Shown here one piece after another: positions 7,667 to 22,026 of a stretch of 43,783 nucleotides of DNA. Position 1 is the first letter of the stretch. The number at the start of each line of letters is the position of its first letter. Under the pieces are notes generated by a model that searched no databases, was not told where the DNA came from, and saw only the letters and a list, made by a program, of their open reading frames with translations. The stretch is from the NCBI GenBank assembly GCA_017448345.1, contig JAFSLP010000108.1:1-43783 (forward strand). Direction: 5' to 3'. Origin of the DNA: Paludibacteraceae bacterium (GTDB taxonomy: Bacteria; Bacteroidota; Bacteroidia; Bacteroidales; Paludibacteraceae). A program made the translations under genes and the position numbers.

Positions 7667-7685
7667 ATCTTTAAAAATTACTAAA

Positions 7686-7737
7686 TGGTTAAATTTCTAA
7701 ATAAATGACCAAATGGTAAATGTCCAAATGGTAAATC
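7686..7737. repeat. AAATGGT/AAATGACC repeat array
   Basis: This gap between the GT4 and GH57 genes holds several copies of the AAATGGT and AAATGACC/AAATGTCC units. The same family recurs at six other junctions in the window. Confidence 0.85.
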
Positions 7738-11086: not shown

Positions 11087-11235
11087 TTGTATCCGCCAGT
11101 ATTGGCGGATTTTTCTTTTGCGCTGTTTCCTTCTCTCGCATTTTTCTTACAGGTCGCAGGACGGTCCTACAGCGTAGCGGTCTTACAATGCAAAGGTCTT
11201 ACAGCGCAGCGGTCCTATAGTTCGCTCACGAACTG
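11087..11235. repeat. Hairpin array with GGTCYTACAG linkers
   Basis: In the gap between manC and the debranching gene, a hairpin (ATCCGCCA-GTAT-TGGCGGAT at 11089-11108) is followed from about 11160 by four linker copies of GGTC(C/T)TA(C/T)A, each followed by a short variable insert. The inserts are GCGTAGC, ATGCAAA, GCGCAGC and then AGTTCG-CTCA-CGAACT. The last one lies in the final codons of manC. No gene is visible in this gap. Confidence 0.65.
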
Positions 11236-12435: not shown

Positions 12436-12698
12436 ACGTTTATAAGGTGTTTTTCATTGGTCGTTTTTTCTCTATGGTGATTGCTTCCTTTGTTCCTCTT
12501 TCTTTTCCTCTTTCTTTTTCCTCCCATTCCTCTTTCTTTTTCCTTCTTTTTGGCGGCTAAAAGCGCGTTATTACGGCGTTATTACGGCGTTATTAGCGCG
12601 TTATTTCTGGTACGTTTAGCCTCTGTGAAGGCATGAAATCTTTGTTTCCCTTCATGTTTCTGCTCAGTTGGCTGAATAGTTCTTCCCCAATTAGCGTG
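12436..12698. repeat. Leader of manC with polypyrimidine and GCGTTATTACG repeats
   Basis: This gene-free stretch is the probable 5' untranslated region of manC. It holds a CCTCTTTCTTTT-type polypyrimidine tract (about 12490-12555) and four 11-base units related to GCGTTATTACG (about 12564-12606). No reading frame or known riboswitch is recognisable. Confidence 0.6.
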
Positions 12699-12847: not shown

Positions 12848-13471
12848 ATGGATTTTTTGTCTTTTAAAACACGTGTCTCTTGTTGGGTTCTCGCCGCTGT
12901 TTCGGCGAGTGTGGTGTTGTTTGTTTCTTGTAGCAGCTCATCGGTTCCCAAACCCTACGGATATTTCCGCATCACCACTCCCGACACTGCCTATACCCCT
13001 TTCTCCCTCTCCTTGGGAGAGGGTCGGGGAGAGGTGTTCCCCTACACCTTCGCGGTCTCGCAAAACGCTGTTGTTCAGCCCCGTACGGATGTGGAGGAGC
13101 CTTATTGGGTGAATATCGTCTATCCCTCCCTGAATGCTACGATCCATTGCTCGTACAAACCCGTCCGTAACAACCTCCGCGAACTGACTGAAGATGCTCT
13201 TGGGTTTGTCTATCGCAATGCCTCTTTCGCCAACTCGATACCCGAGCGCGAATATGCTCATCCCGAGGCACATGTCTATGGAGTGCTCTTTGATTTGGAA
13301 GGCAACACGGCTTCTTCGTGCCAGTTCTTCGTCACGGACTCCACACGCCATTTCTTCAGGGCTTCGGTCTATTGCAACTGTCCGCCTAACGCCGATTCAC
13401 TCGCGCCGGTGTATAACTACCTCAGAACGGATGTCATCAAAATGGTCGAAACCTTCCAATGGACGAAATGA
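12848..13471 (+). CDS. gldD: GldD-like lipoprotein
   Basis: A 207-residue lipoprotein. The signal sequence ends in VLFVSC (lipobox, Cys near residue 20), and SVPKPYGYFRI directly after it is the characteristic start of GldD, a cell-envelope lipoprotein needed for gliding and linked to type IX secretion in Flavobacterium and also found in non-gliding Bacteroidales. The C-terminal half (VYGVLFDLEGNTASSCQFFVTDSTRHFFRASVY) fits the family. An in-frame palindromic element at 13000-13036 adds about 12 residues (FSLSLGEGRGEV). The ATG at 12848 is chosen because earlier in-frame starts overlap the -7 box. The GGGP synthase gene follows across an MVNDQ repeat array. Confidence 0.85.
   Translation: MDFLSFKTRVSCWVLAAVSASVVLFVSCSSSSVPKPYGYFRITTPDTAYTPFSLSLGEGRGEVFPYTFAVSQNAVVQPRTDVEEPYWVNIVYPSLNATIHCSYKPVRNNLRELTEDALGFVYRNASFANSIPEREYAHPEAHVYGVLFDLEGNTASSCQFFVTDSTRHFFRASVYCNCPPNADSLAPVYNYLRTDVIKMVETFQWTK
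13000..13036. repeat. CCCTCTCC/GGAGAGGG palindromic element inside gldD
   Basis: Same element and same plus-strand orientation as the manC copy, identical over about 37 bases. Here it is translated from the plus strand as FSLSLGEGRGEV. Confidence 0.9.
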
Positions 13472-13553
13472 CCAAATAAATGACCAAATAAATGACCAAA
13501 TGGTAAATGACAAAATGGTAAATGACCAAATGGTAAATGACCAAATGGTAAAT
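13472..13553 (+). repeat. 15-base MVND(Q/K) repeat array before the GGGP synthase gene
   Basis: Copies of AAATGACC, AAATAAATGACC and AAATGGTAAATGACC start at the gldD stop codon. They provide four in-frame ATG codons for the next gene, at 13500, 13515, 13530 and 13545, each 15 bases apart. Confidence 0.9.
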
Positions 13554-14723
13554 AAGAAAGCGCTCGCCCTCCTGCTTGATCCCGAGAAAGCGGATCTGAA
13601 TGCCCTTCCGCTTTCTGCGGACTGCTTGCCCGACTACATCTTTGTCGGCGGCTCCACAGGTGGCGACCCCACCCCCTTTGTCCGTGCCCTGAAAAAAAAG
13701 CTTTCGACTTTCGACTTTCGACTTTCGACTGTTCCCATCGTCCTCTTTCCCGGTTCCGCCGCGCAGTTCACACCCGAAGCGGATGCAATACTCTATCTCT
13801 CTCTCCTTTCTGGGAATAATCCCGAATACCTTGTCGGTCAGCAGGTTAAGTCCGCGAGAGCCGTTCACGACTCCGGCATAGAAGTCATCCCGACGGCATA
13901 TATCCTCATCGACGGAGGTGTGGAGACATCCACCATGCGCGTCACGGGCACCAGACCCATCCCTCAGTCCGACATCAACACCATCATAGACACCTGTATC
14001 GCGGCAGAACTGATGGGGAAGCGGCTCATCTACCTCGAAGCCGGTTCAGGAGCGCACACACCCGTCTCGCCGGACATCATCAAAGCCGTACGCGAACAGA
14101 CGTCCCTCCCCCTCATCGTCGGTGGAGGTATCCGCACGCCCGAAGACATGAACGCCGCCTTTGAGGCTGGTGCCTCTGTGGTCGTCATCGGCAACCACTT
14201 TGAGTCCCACCCCAAAGAACTGAAAGATTTTATCTTGAGAAATCGGATAAATTCGGATAAATTCGGACCCTCTCCGATAAATTCCGAAGATGAGAAATAT
14301 ATGCGTCTCGCCCTCGCAGAAGCCCGGAAAGCCCTCGCGGAGGATGAGATTCCTGTCGGCTGTGTCATCGTCTCGCAGGGGCGGATTATCGGTCGCGGAC
14401 ATAACCTCACAGAGACGCTCTCGGATGTCACGGCGCACGCTGAGATACAGGCTGTTACGGCGGCTGCTCAAACCCTTGGTGGAAAATATTTGCCTGATGC
14501 GGCGCTCTATGTCACGGTCGAACCTTGCCCCATGTGTGCAGGAGCCATCGGATGGGCGCAGATAAAACGTATCGTCTACGGAGCGCCTGACCCCAAAAGA
14601 GGCTACACACTTTTCGCTCCGCGTGCCTTCCATCCCAAAGCCTCCGTCACATCAGGAGTACTCGAAGCCGAGTGTAAAGAACTGATGCAGGACTTCTTCT
14701 CGAAGAAAAGAAAAACCAAATGA
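13500..14723 (+). CDS. Fusion: geranylgeranylglyceryl phosphate synthase (PcrB/GGGPS) + tRNA adenosine deaminase TadA
   Basis: One frame of 407 residues encodes two enzymes. Residues about 16-255 are a TIM-barrel GGGP synthase (KKALALLLDPEKADL, YIFVGGSTGG, YLEAGSGAHTPVS, LIVGGGIRTPEDM), which joins a polyprenyl group to glycerol-1-phosphate, the first step to archaeal-type ether lipids. Residues about 263-407 are TadA, which makes inosine 34 in tRNA-Arg: zinc motif HAE near residue 313, PCPMCAGA near 342. The junction (14243-14287) is a run of CGGATAAATT-like repeats with no stop codon. A CTTTCGA array (13701-13730) adds LSTFDFRLST inside the synthase. Start candidates are the repeat ATGs at 13500, 13515, 13530 and 13545; the last gives the most family-like N-terminus. 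A sequencing frameshift at the junction cannot be excluded, but both domains are intact in one frame. Confidence 0.9.
   Translation: MVNDKMVNDQMVNDQMVNKKALALLLDPEKADLNALPLSADCLPDYIFVGGSTGGDPTPFVRALKKKLSTFDFRLSTVPIVLFPGSAAQFTPEADAILYLSLLSGNNPEYLVGQQVKSARAVHDSGIEVIPTAYILIDGGVETSTMRVTGTRPIPQSDINTIIDTCIAAELMGKRLIYLEAGSGAHTPVSPDIIKAVREQTSLPLIVGGGIRTPEDMNAAFEAGASVVVIGNHFESHPKELKDFILRNRINSDKFGPSPINSEDEKYMRLALAEARKALAEDEIPVGCVIVSQGRIIGRGHNLTETLSDVTAHAEIQAVTAAAQTLGGKYLPDAALYVTVEPCPMCAGAIGWAQIKRIVYGAPDPKRGYTLFAPRAFHPKASVTSGVLEAECKELMQDFFSKKRKTK
13701..13730. repeat. CTTTCGA heptamer array inside the GGGP synthase domain
   Basis: Four tandem CTTTCGA units are translated as LSTFDFRLST between an alpha helix and the next beta strand of the barrel. 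Confidence 0.85.
14243..14287. repeat. CGGATAAATT-type repeat at the GGGPS-TadA junction
   Basis: Three degenerate units of CGGATAAATTC followed by a CCGATAAATTCC copy encode the linker RINSDKFGPSPINSE between the two enzyme domains. Confidence 0.75.
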
Positions 14724-14920
14724 CCAAATGGTAAATGGTAAAATGGTAAATGACCAAATGGTAAATGACCAAATGGTAAATGGTAAAATGGTAAATGGTA
14801 AAATGGTAAATGACAAAATGGTAAATGACCCAATAAATGACAAAATGGTAAATGACAAAATGGTAAATGACAAAATGGTAAATGACAAAATGGTAAATGA
14901 CAAAATGGTAAATGGTAAGA
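14718..14920 (+). repeat. Long 15-base MVND(Q/K) repeat array before pgpH
   Basis: Thirteen or so tandem units of ATGGTAAATGACAAA and its variants (GAC/GGT and CAA/AAA at the last two codons) fill all of the space between TadA and the conserved part of PgpH. The frame of PgpH is open through the whole array and meets an ATG in nearly every unit. The other two plus-strand frames meet TAA or TGA in each unit. Confidence 0.95.
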
Positions 14921-16864: not shown

Positions 16865-17902
16865 AACAAATTATACTTGGCTCCCATGGAGGATGTCACC
16901 GATCCTGCCTTCCGTGCCCTCTGCAAACGCTATGGAGCCGACCGTGTCTATACCGAGTTTGTCAACGCCGACGCGCTCGTCCGCGATGTCTCTTCCACCA
17001 CCCGCAAACTGACCATCTCCGATGCAGAACGGCCGGTGGCGATACAGATCTACGGACGCGAACCGGAGGCTATGGCGGATGCCGCGCGTATCGTCGAGCA
17101 GGCGCACCCGGATTTCATTGACATCAATTTCGGCTGTCCGGTCAAGAAAGTCGCAGGCAAAGGTGCCGGAGCCGGACTCCTTCGTGACGTGCCTAAGATG
17201 CTGGAAATCACTCGCGCCGTCGTCAATGCCGTCCATACGCCTGTCACAGCCAAGACCCGCCTCGGATGGGATGAAAACGACCTCCATCCGCGCGTCAATC
17301 CCTTGGGACTCAACACTCCCTCCCTTGTGGGGAGGGCAGGGGAGGGGTTGTTCATCTTGGAACTTGCAGAAGCCCTTCAGGACTGCGGCATCGCCGAACT
17401 CGCCATCCACGGACGCACGCGTTCGCAGATGTACAGGGGCGAAGCCGACTGGACCCTTATCGGCGAGGTCAAAGCCAACCCGCGCATGCATATACCTGTT
17501 ATAGGTAACGGGGACGTGTGTACGCCTGCACGCGCAAAAGAGTGTTTCGACCGCTACGGTGTGGATGCCGTCATGGTCGGACGGGCGACTTTCGGCGCCC
17601 CGTGGCTCTTCGCCGAGATGAAAGCGACCCTGTGCCCGGGATCTCCGGATTATCCGGATTTTCCGGTTTCTATGGCGGACAAAGTCTCTGTCCTCAAGGA
17701 GCACGTCCTCGCTTCCATCGCGTGGTGCGGCAACGACGAGCGCAAAGGCATCATCCATTCGCGCCGCCATTTCGCCGCCTCGCCGGTCTTCAAAGGGCTT
17801 GCCGACTTCAAGCAGACCCGCATAGCCCTCCTTCGCGCAGAAACTGTCGCCGACGTCTTCGCTATCATGGACTCCATCGTCGACCGCTGGGGAAATGATT
17901 AA
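16862..17902 (+). CDS. dus: tRNA-dihydrouridine synthase
   Basis: A 346-residue flavoenzyme that reduces uridines of tRNA to dihydrouridine. The start LYLAPMEDVTDPAFRALC is the FMN-binding first motif. DINFGCPVKKVAGKGAGAGL carries the catalytic Cys, ELAIHGRTRSQMY and VMVGRATFGAPWLF follow. There are two in-frame repeat insertions. One is a palindromic element (17316-17350, TPSLVGRAGEGLF). The other is a TCCGGATTATCCGG-like run (17639-17671, GSPDYPDFPVS). The ATG at 16862 is preferred over 16847 because the conserved N-terminus begins there. It follows pgpH in the same orientation and probably belongs to the gldD transcript. Confidence 0.94.
   Translation: MNKLYLAPMEDVTDPAFRALCKRYGADRVYTEFVNADALVRDVSSTTRKLTISDAERPVAIQIYGREPEAMADAARIVEQAHPDFIDINFGCPVKKVAGKGAGAGLLRDVPKMLEITRAVVNAVHTPVTAKTRLGWDENDLHPRVNPLGLNTPSLVGRAGEGLFILELAEALQDCGIAELAIHGRTRSQMYRGEADWTLIGEVKANPRMHIPVIGNGDVCTPARAKECFDRYGVDAVMVGRATFGAPWLFAEMKATLCPGSPDYPDFPVSMADKVSVLKEHVLASIAWCGNDERKGIIHSRRHFAASPVFKGLADFKQTRIALLRAETVADVFAIMDSIVDRWGND
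17316..17350. repeat. Palindromic element inside dus
   Basis: CTCCCTCCC-TTGTG-GGGAGGG followed by a second right arm (GGGGAGGGG) is a diverged member of the palindrome family seen in manC, gldD and maf. Confidence 0.8.
17639..17671. repeat. TCCGGATT repeat inside dus
   Basis: TCTCCGGATTATCCGGATTTTCCGG-type units are translated as GSPDYPDFP. They are related to the TCGGAT repeats at the GGGPS-TadA junction and in the topoisomerase tail. Confidence 0.65.
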
Positions 17903-17946
17903 ATGCGAAAATGATTAAATGCGAAAATGAATAAATGACCAAATGA
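17893..17946 (+). repeat. AAATGATT/AAATGCGA/AAATGACC repeat array before the SBF gene
   Basis: About six 7-9 base units beginning AAATG lie between dus and the transporter gene. The last one provides its ATG. Confidence 0.85.
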
Positions 17947-19043
17947 ATAAATGGTTTGATTCCAACGCCCTTTGGCTCTCGATGCTTATCGGAGCTTTCG
18001 GATATAAACTCTTCCTGCCGCTTGCTCCGCTGTTGCCGGTGCTCATCTTTTTTATGCTTTTCTTCACCTTCTGCAAGGTGAATCCGCTGGACCTCCGCCT
18101 GCATCGATGGCATTGGGTGGTGCTTTTCGCGCAGCTTGTTCTCAGTTTCGCCTCATATGCCGCTGTCCTCTCTCTCACCAGTAACAATATTCTTGCGCAA
18201 GGTATCCTCATGTGTTTCATCATGCCTACGGCTACAGCGGCTCCTATCATTGCCGGTAAGATGGGCGGCTCCATACAGAACCTCACCACTTTCACCCTCC
18301 TCTCTAATTTCGCCACAGCCCTCATCGTCCCTGCCACGTTCCCGCTCATCACAAGTGATCTCTCAATCCTCCATTCCCAATTCTCAATTCTCCATTCCCA
18401 ATTCCTCCCTGCTTTTCTACTGATTCTCAGCCATGTGGCGCCGCTGTTGCTCGGACCCTTCTTCGCCGCTTGGCTCCTTAGAATAGGCTATAACTACTAT
18501 CAGCGCCGTAAATATCTGTCAGCGAGTGAAACTCGCGGTCTGTCAGTGATACGGTCTGTCAGCGCAAGCGGTCTGTCAGTCGAAGACGGTCTGCCAACTT
18601 TCACGCTGTCGAAAAAGTTGGCATTGATCCCCTTCTACCTCTGGGTTGCGTCTATTGTGGTCCTTATGGCGGTGGTTACCCGGACGGTCATTGAAAATAT
18701 CCACTATACTTTATCCGTTATTCCTTACCTGCTGGTAGGCAGTTTCTTCGCCTGCCTCATCCAGTTCTCTCTGGGCAAACTCATCGGCTGGTGGCTTCCG
18801 GCACCCAGTAAGGGCAAGGACTATCAGGATGTCCTCATTAATCCTGCCGCTGCGCCTAAGACGATGCAGGGCGTCAGCTCCATCACGGCTGGGCAGGCTT
18901 TCGGACAGAAGAACACCTCCCTCGGCGTATGGATGGCGCAGACTTACTTGGACCCTCTCTCCGCACTCGGTGCCGCTGCATACATCCTCTGGCAGAATAT
19001 CTTCAACTCCGCCCAACTCGCCCTCGCCGCCCGCAAGAAATAA
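17943..19043 (+). CDS. SBF-family (bile acid:sodium symporter-like) membrane transporter
   Basis: A 366-residue protein with about eight to ten membrane segments. ILAQGILMCFIMPTATAAPI, the NLTTFTLLSNFATALIVP segment, and GQAFGQKNTSLGVWMAQTYL are the conserved regions of the SBF/BASS family, which import organic anions or pantoate with sodium; the substrate here is unknown. Two in-frame insertions disturb loops. One is a TTCTCAA heptamer array (18361-18404) read as SILHSQFSILHSQF at residues about 140-154. The other is a hairpin array (18516-18600) read as SASETRGLSVIRSVSASGLS at residues about 192-215. The ATG at 17943 comes from the AAATGAATAAATGG end of the upstream repeat. Confidence 0.85.
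   Translation: MNKWFDSNALWLSMLIGAFGYKLFLPLAPLLPVLIFFMLFFTFCKVNPLDLRLHRWHWVVLFAQLVLSFASYAAVLSLTSNNILAQGILMCFIMPTATAAPIIAGKMGGSIQNLTTFTLLSNFATALIVPATFPLITSDLSILHSQFSILHSQFLPAFLLILSHVAPLLLGPFFAAWLLRIGYNYYQRRKYLSASETRGLSVIRSVSASGLSVEDGLPTFTLSKKLALIPFYLWVASIVVLMAVVTRTVIENIHYTLSVIPYLLVGSFFACLIQFSLGKLIGWWLPAPSKGKDYQDVLINPAAAPKTMQGVSSITAGQAFGQKNTSLGVWMAQTYLDPLSALGAAAYILWQNIFNSAQLALAARKK
18361..18404. repeat. TTCTCAA/TTCCCAA heptamer array inside the SBF gene
   Basis: Six tandem 7-base units. Because 21 bases is three units, the translated peptide repeats every seven residues (SILHSQF). Confidence 0.85.
18516..18600. repeat. Hairpin array with GGTCTGTCAG linkers inside the SBF gene
   Basis: Four copies of the linker CTGTCAG...CGGT enclose different short stem-loops: GCGAGT-GAA-ACTCGC, GT-GAT-AC, GC-GCAA-GC and GTC-GAA-GAC. 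The linkers stay constant while the stems change in length and sequence. The whole array is translated in frame. Confidence 0.75.
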
Positions 19044-19334
19044 CTCCCTTTTCTTCCCTTCGCCTTCTCCGTATGTTCATTTCAGGGCAATATTCATCTT
19101 CATCATTCCATCATTCAGCTCGCACAGCGAGCGGCTCAATCCATCATTCATCATTCCATCATAAAGGGGGCGGGGGTGCCAATATACAATTAGCATTAAT
19201 TCAGCATATCTCACCATAGGATAACCATAGGATAACCATAGGATAACCATAAGATACTTCGCCAAAATGTCTAAAATCATGCTTTTACTATATATATACA
19301 CAGTATATATATACTTTTAAACATGTTTTTTTTA
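19044..19334. repeat. Repeat-rich intergenic region with ATAGGATAACC tandem repeat
   Basis: No gene is visible. The region holds CATCATTCCATCATTCA-type repeats (about 19098-19165) around a CTCGC-ACA-GCGAG hairpin, four 11-base units of ATAGGATAACC (about 19213-19253), and a TATATATATA-centred palindrome (about 19288-19315) just before the promoter at 19335. Confidence 0.75.
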
Positions 19335-21962: not shown

Positions 21963-22026
21963 ACGCACATACGCGCAACATACGCGCAGCATACGCGCTA
22001 CATACGCGCAAAAACGCGCAAAAATA
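21963..22026. repeat. ACGCGCAACAT tandem repeat upstream of a promoter
   Basis: Six units of 8 to 11 bases (ACGCGCAACAT, ACGCGCAGCAT, ACGCGCTACAT and shorter ACGCGCAAAA forms) end 30 bases before the -33 box of the starch-binding protein gene. Related units occur upstream of the promoter at 32456. Confidence 0.85.

Follow-up and report, generated by a model that had tools for sequence, protein, structure and literature searches.

How can a protein-coding gene accommodate four small hairpins in succession, each with a stem of its own and all joined by a constant linker, and at which level is such a structure kept? The question arises in the window, the whole stretch of 43 783 nucleotides analysed here (contig C103 of an assembly of 2.5 Mb that is 80.6% complete), where a transporter gene carries such an array in frame. 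A second array of the same family lies between genes. The features are as follows.

17943..19043, + strand: SBF (sodium/bile-acid-symporter-like) transporter gene, ORF of 366 aa (PF01758), host of the in-frame array
18516..18596, + strand: four-hairpin array with constant linkers, read from the sequence as four times CTGTCA-hairpin-GGT and then CTGCCA
18522..18536, + strand: hairpin 1, GCGAGT-GAA-ACTCGC, 6 bp with a GAA loop, following CTGTCA at 18516-18521
18537..18545, + strand: linker GGTCTGTCA, also at 18553-18561 and 18570-18578
18546..18552, + strand: hairpin 2, GT-GAT-AC, 2 bp
18562..18569, + strand: hairpin 3, GC-GCAA-GC, 2 bp with a GNNA loop
18579..18587, + strand: hairpin 4, GTC-GAA-GAC, 3 bp with a GAA loop
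11145..11214, + strand: second array, linkers GGTC[CT]TACA, intergenic, opposite to both neighbouring genes

A family of hairpin arrays in one genus

The preliminary description had the linker CTGTCAG...CGGT recurring four times around differing palindromes, in frame within the SBF gene, and this is borne out. CTGTCAG and CGGT each occur four times in the array, the stems are exactly as noted and all perfect, and the ORF runs across 18516-18596 with no stop. The full linker GGTCTGTCAG is present exactly three times (at 18537, 18553 and 18570), with half-linkers at both ends of the array. Given the lengths, the 13 complementary pairs, at about 0.25 each, would arise by chance with a probability of about 1e-8 by hand arithmetic. 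The linker alone is not rare; allowing one mismatch, GGTCTGTCAG has 5 matches in the window against a shuffle mean of 2.14, and 6 of 100 shuffles reach 5. The pattern GGTCTNNCAN{6,18}GGTC has 8 window matches against a shuffle mean of 0.17 and a largest value of 1 in 100 shuffles; five of the eight fall in two arrays and three look like chance. In the array at 11145-11214 two of the four inserts are fully paired by eye (GC-GTA-GC and GC-GCA-GC) and the other two are broken. The SBF match of the ORF, at 25.7 bits, is barely above the PF01758 cut-off of 24.3, and the gene has a match in 135 of the 178 genomes of the genus. It contains a second in-frame repeat at 18361-18404, in which TCTCAATCCTCCATTCCCAAT occurs about twice; ATTACCA-type repeats are found in that loop at two other loci (L192, L199).

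How general are such arrays? The hairpin array is not peculiar to the SBF gene, nor is this the only one, as many more occur in the same genome and its relatives. The genome itself has 14 matches to GGTCTGTCAG, of which three lie in the SBF array and three in another four-hairpin array (contig C48); some of the remainder are within hairpin units (C78, C83) and several are chance-like. The two-linker pattern GGTCTNNCAN{6,18}GGTCTNNCA occurs in 131 of the 178 genomes of the genus, with 0 to 66 matches per genome, against 0-5 per strand for the reversed pattern used as control. Outside the genus none of 180 genomes from 32 other genera, among 300 of the family, has more than 4 matches. A scan of named genomes gave at least 119 stretches; the 80 listed are mostly from Bacteroidales and Paludibacteraceae MAGs, many with the names of rumen or gut isolates, and 8 of these 80 are from other organisms. 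The single match in viral contigs has as its insert a different tandem repeat with no hairpin unit, and among the titles and abstracts listed in searches of open-access literature there is no report of this array family. It is restricted to the genus, its strand-oriented inserts being joined by the linker CGGTCTNNCAG.

Self-complementarity of the inserts and changes in their stems

Loci were collected by linker pattern or protein homology, so that pairing was not a criterion of selection; the first array finder, which required pairing, was not used for counts of palindromy for that reason. A parsed array has at least two linkers. The pairing-blind parser demands linkers of the form G-N-TC-[TC]-NN-CA and so misses arrays joined differently, for instance by GTCCTGTA in the Mfd loop. 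Eleven loci that title or sequence marked as foreign organisms or unrelated repeats were excluded before the counts (L075, L076, L087, L091, L099, L101, L126, L130, L145, L151 and L168). As a null for pairing, 3′ halves were exchanged among inserts of the same length class.

By this parser a stem of 2 bp or more is present in 399 of 443 inner inserts, whereas 1000 swaps average 229.5 and never exceed 257; with end inserts included the count is 690 of 752. The 464 units of distinct context, a count that also left out L167 (an early count left out only 8 loci with foreign titles), comprise 132 distinct inserts. When each distinct insert is counted once (2000 swaps), 21 of 27 7-mers are paired (null 10.5, maximum 18), 17 of 20 8-mers (11.9, 16), 12 of 13 9-mers (3.4, 9), 17 of 23 11-mers (5.3, 12) and 6 of 21 15-mers (0.5, 4). 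The few 10-, 12-, 13-, 14- and 16-mers do not pair above the null maximum. Among the G...C 7-mers of the 464 units the second pair is C-G in 151, T-A in 65, T-G in 4, C-A in none and otherwise in 3. Stems are varied, the 196 triloop hairpins with 3 bp or more having 22 distinct ones. In inserts of 15-16 nt a GA/GA step frequently separates two segments of 2 bp, as in GC GA GT GAA AC GA GC; we take this step to be a candidate for tandem G-A mismatches. The claim that self-complementarity is kept while the stems vary therefore holds at the other loci, where the inserts are palindromic far above the half-swap null and not at chance level.

There is a preferred number of hairpins, which is four. 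Among 200 arrays the paired hairpins number one in 11, two in 33, three in 40, four in 104, five in 8, six in 2, and ten and fifteen in one each. The longest arrays are those of L105 and L174, with 15 and 10-11 hairpins respectively and mostly 7-nt inserts; the former overlaps the 5′ end of an ORF and the latter lies between genes.

The SBF array can be followed among orthologues, six of the ten that bear an array having the same pattern of insert lengths, 15-7-8-9. In these six 98.7% of cells are paired, and covariation is 0.256 against 0.098 when shuffled, a value reached in 0 of 500 shuffles, with every slid version lower. Two of the five measures are weak: there are 3 both-sided pair changes, reached by 25 of 500 shuffles, and 4 further pair types, reached by 358 of 500. 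Helix 1 is invariant and thus uninformative on covariation. Its stem is identical in orthologues G046, G070, G077, G123 and G085, with a GCA loop in G077. The second pair of hairpin 2 is C-G in three and T-A in three of the six, and its first pair is broken in one; the second pair of hairpin 3 is C-G in five and T-A in one, and the middle pair of hairpin 4 is C-G in three, G-C in two and T-A in one.

Flank similarity groups the arrays into 35 clusters, some of which merge different arrays through shared repeats. Comparing pairs of arrays with at least 90% flank identity, we find 7 one-sided changes and 1 two-sided paired change, a thin figure, since the seven represent about five distinct changes at four loci (L146, L157, L184 and L297). 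At 80-90% identity there are 13 one-sided and 39 two-sided paired changes, and 8 two-sided changes with one state unpaired; counted by position, 319 paired positions are unchanged, 39 have changed on both sides and remain paired, and 21 are otherwise. In this band the loop is altered in 70 of 146 hairpins. At 70-80% identity the corresponding changes number 11, 55 and 2. Insert length differs in a further 6, 39 and 48 comparisons in the three bands, from most to least alike. A compensated change is also seen between two Mfd antisense arrays (L121 and L245). The counts by flank identity are those predicted by constraint with compensation, for arrays and ortholog pairs that are not independent, several coming from the same species. 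A process that copies a sequence together with its complement, which the preliminary description had offered as an alternative to maintained structure, is not favoured by the excess of one-sided changes between the closest relatives, thin as that is.

Host genes, strand and turnover at array sites

Where do the arrays lie? Of 156 with at least three hairpins, 108 are in ORFs in the sense direction, 13 are antisense, 27 are intergenic and 8 partly overlap an ORF, so that 121 of 156 are within ORFs; the simple ORF caller used covers 90% of array loci. All 16 host ORFs tested (10 sense and 6 antisense, the array list from the first finder holding 9 antisense arrays) match a Pfam family. The sense hosts are SBF, Dus, Peptidase_M16, a RapZ C-terminal protein with APH, a RadA-like AAA/ChlI protein, Fe-S/pyridine-nucleotide and FAD proteins, alpha/beta hydrolase, Radical SAM/SPASM and DUF3987; the antisense hosts are TRCF (Mfd), UPF0004/Radical SAM (MiaB-like), two Fe-S proteins, GH3 and DUF2490. 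At 30 of 30 SBF loci one tblastn alignment spans the loop in a single frame, and the length of the Mfd loop is a multiple of three in 31 of 31 rows (30 distinct loci). The sense four-hairpin arrays given by the first finder are 65-87 nt long. Their own length is unrestricted modulo 3, 68 of them dividing as 30, 23 and 15, and the flanks must therefore offset the difference wherever an array is in frame. The peptides at the SBF site vary between species, and a 16-nt unit is read through all three frames. Strand bias was compared with third-position GC skew, of which a weak component follows the array strand (-0.041 ± 0.009 for 248 gene groups, from overlapping loci that are not independent). 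Of the loci having genes both ways, 38 of 65 with sense arrays, 5 of 7 with antisense arrays and 13 of 20 others give a negative value.

The occupancy of a given site changes. Among 50 SBF orthologues placed on a tree, and labelled by eye, 10 have four-hairpin arrays, 10 other inserts or repeats and 30 no such repeat (50 of 52 loci, L211 having been left out and one removed by a length filter). The array label requires 8 changes on this tree against a shuffled mean of 9.3, and 70 of 500 shuffles are as low; single vertical descent of the SBF array is not supported by the gene tree. The scatter implies that the content of the loop is lost, gained or exchanged quickly, or that the gene itself moves between species, while the identity of hairpin 1 in scattered species points to a common origin. 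Unrelated inserts in the SBF loop of L195, L228 and L230-L235 are for the most part short repeats in tandem, TCACGTCA, ACTAGT and AATCACC among them. In the Mfd loop there are antisense arrays at L315 and L316 and a sense array at L341, and elsewhere other repeats or none. A related hairpin array, with the linker GTCCTGTA (GTTCTGTA in L335) and loops that are mostly GN(N)A, lies antisense to mfd at L319, L322, L325, L335 and L339, which suggests further linker families.

Linkers agree with each other within an array more than they do across arrays of the same genome, in 79 of 118 cases against 41.5 expected and a maximum of 58. This test used 7 of 13 genomes, leaving out G062, G064, G066 and G029 (one match each), G068 (5 matches, all TGTCA), G069 (18, nearly all with one linker) and 5 chance-like matches; by genome, there is no excess in G074 (6 of 16, null 6.2) and little in G026 (13 of 19, null 9.2, maximum 16). 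The series of hairpins behaves differently. In 14 genomes, with loci grouped by hand, no run of three hairpins is common to different loci in 309 within-genome or 2907 between-genome pairs, and the sharing of adjacent hairpin pairs is slightly higher inside genomes (9 of 357) than from one genome to another (33 of 3615). Array pairs whose flanks resemble each other were not counted, among them one in L102, where two arrays about 1 kb apart have the same four hairpins; it was taken as a local duplication. Recent transposition of whole arrays is not seen, since the hairpin series is not common to different loci, and it was rejected as a source of the arrays.

Loops, explanations and known relatives

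The loops follow a rule. GNA accounts for 433 of 541 triloops in the collected arrays, against 8.1% in GC...GC or GT...AC frames outside arrays, and GNNA for 76 of 99 tetraloops against 6.1%; just 18 of these 76 are GNRA. The pair closing the triloop is C-G in 439 and T-A in 102, with a pyrimidine on the 5′ side in 541 of 541. The rule is obeyed in intergenic triloops (GNA in 66 of 71) and, read on the array's own strand, in antisense arrays (12 of 16 GNA and 14 of 15 GNNA), where the mRNA carries the complement; among intergenic tetraloops only 3 of 7 are GNNA. In sense arrays the proportion of GNA depends on the coding phase (59 of 64, 21 of 48 and 58 of 90), and ANA loops reach up to 21 of 48 in one phase. 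That it is structure which is maintained, as had been suggested, is thus supported by palindromy above control, by compensated stems in orthologues and by loop rules in sense, antisense and intergenic triloops.

The promoters of N4 virion RNA polymerase are a natural parallel to GNA/GNNA mini-hairpins. In the energy model 2-bp stems are hardly stable and no unusual stability is seen for the mini-hairpins. Folding of the SBF array is not exceptional (z of -0.54 as DNA and -0.70 as RNA for the + strand, -1.39 and -0.20 for the - strand), and only hairpin 1 of the four is predicted, in all four folds. GNA and GNNA loops on stems with at least two G-C pairs form extraordinarily stable mini-hairpins in DNA, GCGAAGC having a Tm of 78 C (PMC4686876). 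GT/AC stems miss the two-G-C-pair rule, owing to their T-A closing pair. On balance the loop evidence favours DNA over RNA.

The explanation that we prefer, tentatively and at somewhat short of an even chance, is that the arrays are genus-restricted multi-hairpin inserts whose fold is kept at the nucleic-acid level, most likely as mini-hairpins of single-stranded DNA, with the peptide a passenger. It starts from what is directly observed, which is the family, its palindromy, the preferred number of four, the in-frame placement, the compensated stems and the GNA/GNNA loops. Many unrelated protein genes carry the arrays in frame, in permissive loops, and other arrays lie between genes; the conserved entity would be the fold on the array's own strand, perhaps where a template under replication or the side of a transcription bubble exposes it, so that hairpins and linker together may be recognised by a putative protein. 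The encoded peptide, of about 22-29 residues, would be tolerated. The likeness of linkers within arrays is not predicted by selection acting locus by locus and counts against this explanation. So do the unexceptional folding energy, the T-A-closed stems, the lower share of GNA in two coding phases and of GNNA between genes, the two weak covariation measures, the scatter of insert content on the SBF tree and the two broken inserts of the window's second array. A more specific version, somewhat improbable as it stands, would have the arrays be four-part recognition sites in single-stranded DNA, in which GN(N)A mini-hairpins present the fixed linker to a putative genus-specific protein acting on the chromosome (in replication, repair, segregation or self-marking), carried as translated passengers in housekeeping genes and kept by compensatory evolution.

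Could the hairpins act instead in mRNA, for example as sites for RNA-binding proteins or as translation or decay signals? The excess of sense over antisense arrays in ORFs (108 against 13), the intergenic arrays that are co-oriented with both neighbours (14, against 8 opposed to both) and the wobbles on the array strand (28 of the G-T type, 8 of the A-C type) are in keeping with this. Yet stop codons can account for the bias, as 64 of the 108 sense arrays have no open frame when flipped, and the GN(N)A loops of antisense arrays are kept on the strand that is not mRNA. Moreover GNRA is a minor part of the GNNA tetraloops, the RNA z-score is ordinary and Rfam gives no match up to E=1 at 17900-19300, and we consider an RNA-level element unlikely. 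Selfish mobile palindromic elements, resembling the Rickettsia palindromic elements (RPE), are a somewhat unlikely alternative, in which spreading would depend on the structure and the host proteins would do no more than tolerate its presence. They would fit the in-frame inserts in SBF, Dus, Peptidase_M16, RapZ C-terminal/APH, Radical SAM, Fe-S, GH3 and TRCF (Mfd) genes, the orthologous sites that are filled or unfilled, the patchy copy number and the small within-genome excess of adjacent hairpin pairs. Against them stand the lack of any three-hairpin run at two loci once the like-flank L102 pair is left out, the continued pairing of orthologous stems and a Y1 transposase that is seemingly not required.

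A mutational by-product, with template switching or slippage building repeats in permissive loops and correcting quasi-palindromes with no selection on structure, would explain why quite different tandem repeats occupy the SBF loop, and likewise the Mfd loop, why linkers are homogeneous within arrays and why 2-bp stems so weak in the energy model occur at all. Neither the number four nor GN(N)A loops nor a 5′-pyrimidine closing pair would follow from it, and between close relatives one-sided changes outnumber two-sided ones (7 to 1, from about five distinct changes at four loci); we regard it as unlikely. Extremely improbable is chance, or a pattern dictated by the encoded peptide: the frame does influence the choice of loop, as the ANA loops of one phase show, but intergenic arrays pair equally and have GNA loops, half-swap and slide controls fall far short, and the peptides at the SBF site differ between species.

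The array family is real and unusual, and nearest in kind to the in-frame palindromic coding elements; several small hairpins, constant linkers and compensated stems set it apart. RPE and the coding palindromes of Wolbachia and Methanocaldococcus jannaschii are likewise palindromic, in frame in conserved genes, tolerated and also intergenic (PMC2229807, PMC2996958). RPE are 105-146 bp long and modelled as long stem-loops (PMC2229807), whereas here there are usually four hairpins of 2-6 bp with fixed linkers in 65-87 nt. In-frame insertion in conserved genes, by which RPE are recognised, is found here for the 121 arrays in ORFs; RPE copies at different loci are alike, whereas here the linkers are alike and the hairpin series is not (0 of 309 pairs). 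REP, BIME and REPIN are also small dispersed palindromic repeats. REP sequences have a GTAG or CGTC tag and are mostly extragenic, with some in genes, and as single-stranded DNA are bound by the RAYT (Y1) transposase (PMC3733652); the present arrays are tandem, on the same strand and mostly genic, and the listed ones end in TCTNNCA and GGTC(T), with no such tag. A Y1/RAYT mobiliser shows no clear association with the arrays. Y1_Tnp (PF01797, E<=0.001) is found in 9 of the 17 draft genomes where the pattern matches 30 times or more and in 59 of 161 others; the eight repeat-rich drafts in which it was not found include G002 (66 matches) and G120 (62 matches, 98% complete), and it was not found in G000 or the window's own genome. 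PARCEL (palindromic amphipathic repeat coding elements), too, repeat in tandem within coding sequence and have dyad symmetry at the DNA level, but their definition is an amphipathic protein repeat of 25 residues (PMC2996958); in the present arrays it is the pairing that is kept, while the peptide varies. Perfect inverted repeats in coding sequence occur in the mitochondria of Nematomorpha, where they reach 284 bp and lie in conserved protein regions (PMC6649704), unlike the tiny hairpins in permissive loops seen here. The d(GCGAAGC) mini-hairpins of DNA have the same GNA/GNNA loop rule and the same minimal stems, but are known from oligonucleotides, aptamers and a G-quadruplex (PMC4686876, PMC6479982), whereas this is a genomic family.

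For reading constraint on a nucleic-acid fold within protein-coding DNA, the arrays offer a natural dataset that spans a genus; the first 464 units by themselves include 132 distinct inserts. If the fold is one of DNA, this would be an unusual large-scale case of chromosomal mini-hairpins being kept. In this genus permissive protein loops collect short repeats and swap them at a fast pace, a point of relevance to the question of how proteins acquire new segments.

Other repeats are present in the window. AAATGA-rich tandem repeats with a unit of about 15-16 bases lie at 14718-14914, 13466-13553, 17893-17953 and 7675-7736, one of which is translated as the long MVND-rich N-terminus of an ORF starting at 14728. 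Tandem 11-mers, ACATACGCGCA and GCGTTATTACG, are found at 21967-22021 and 12565-12605, each with a small palindromic core.
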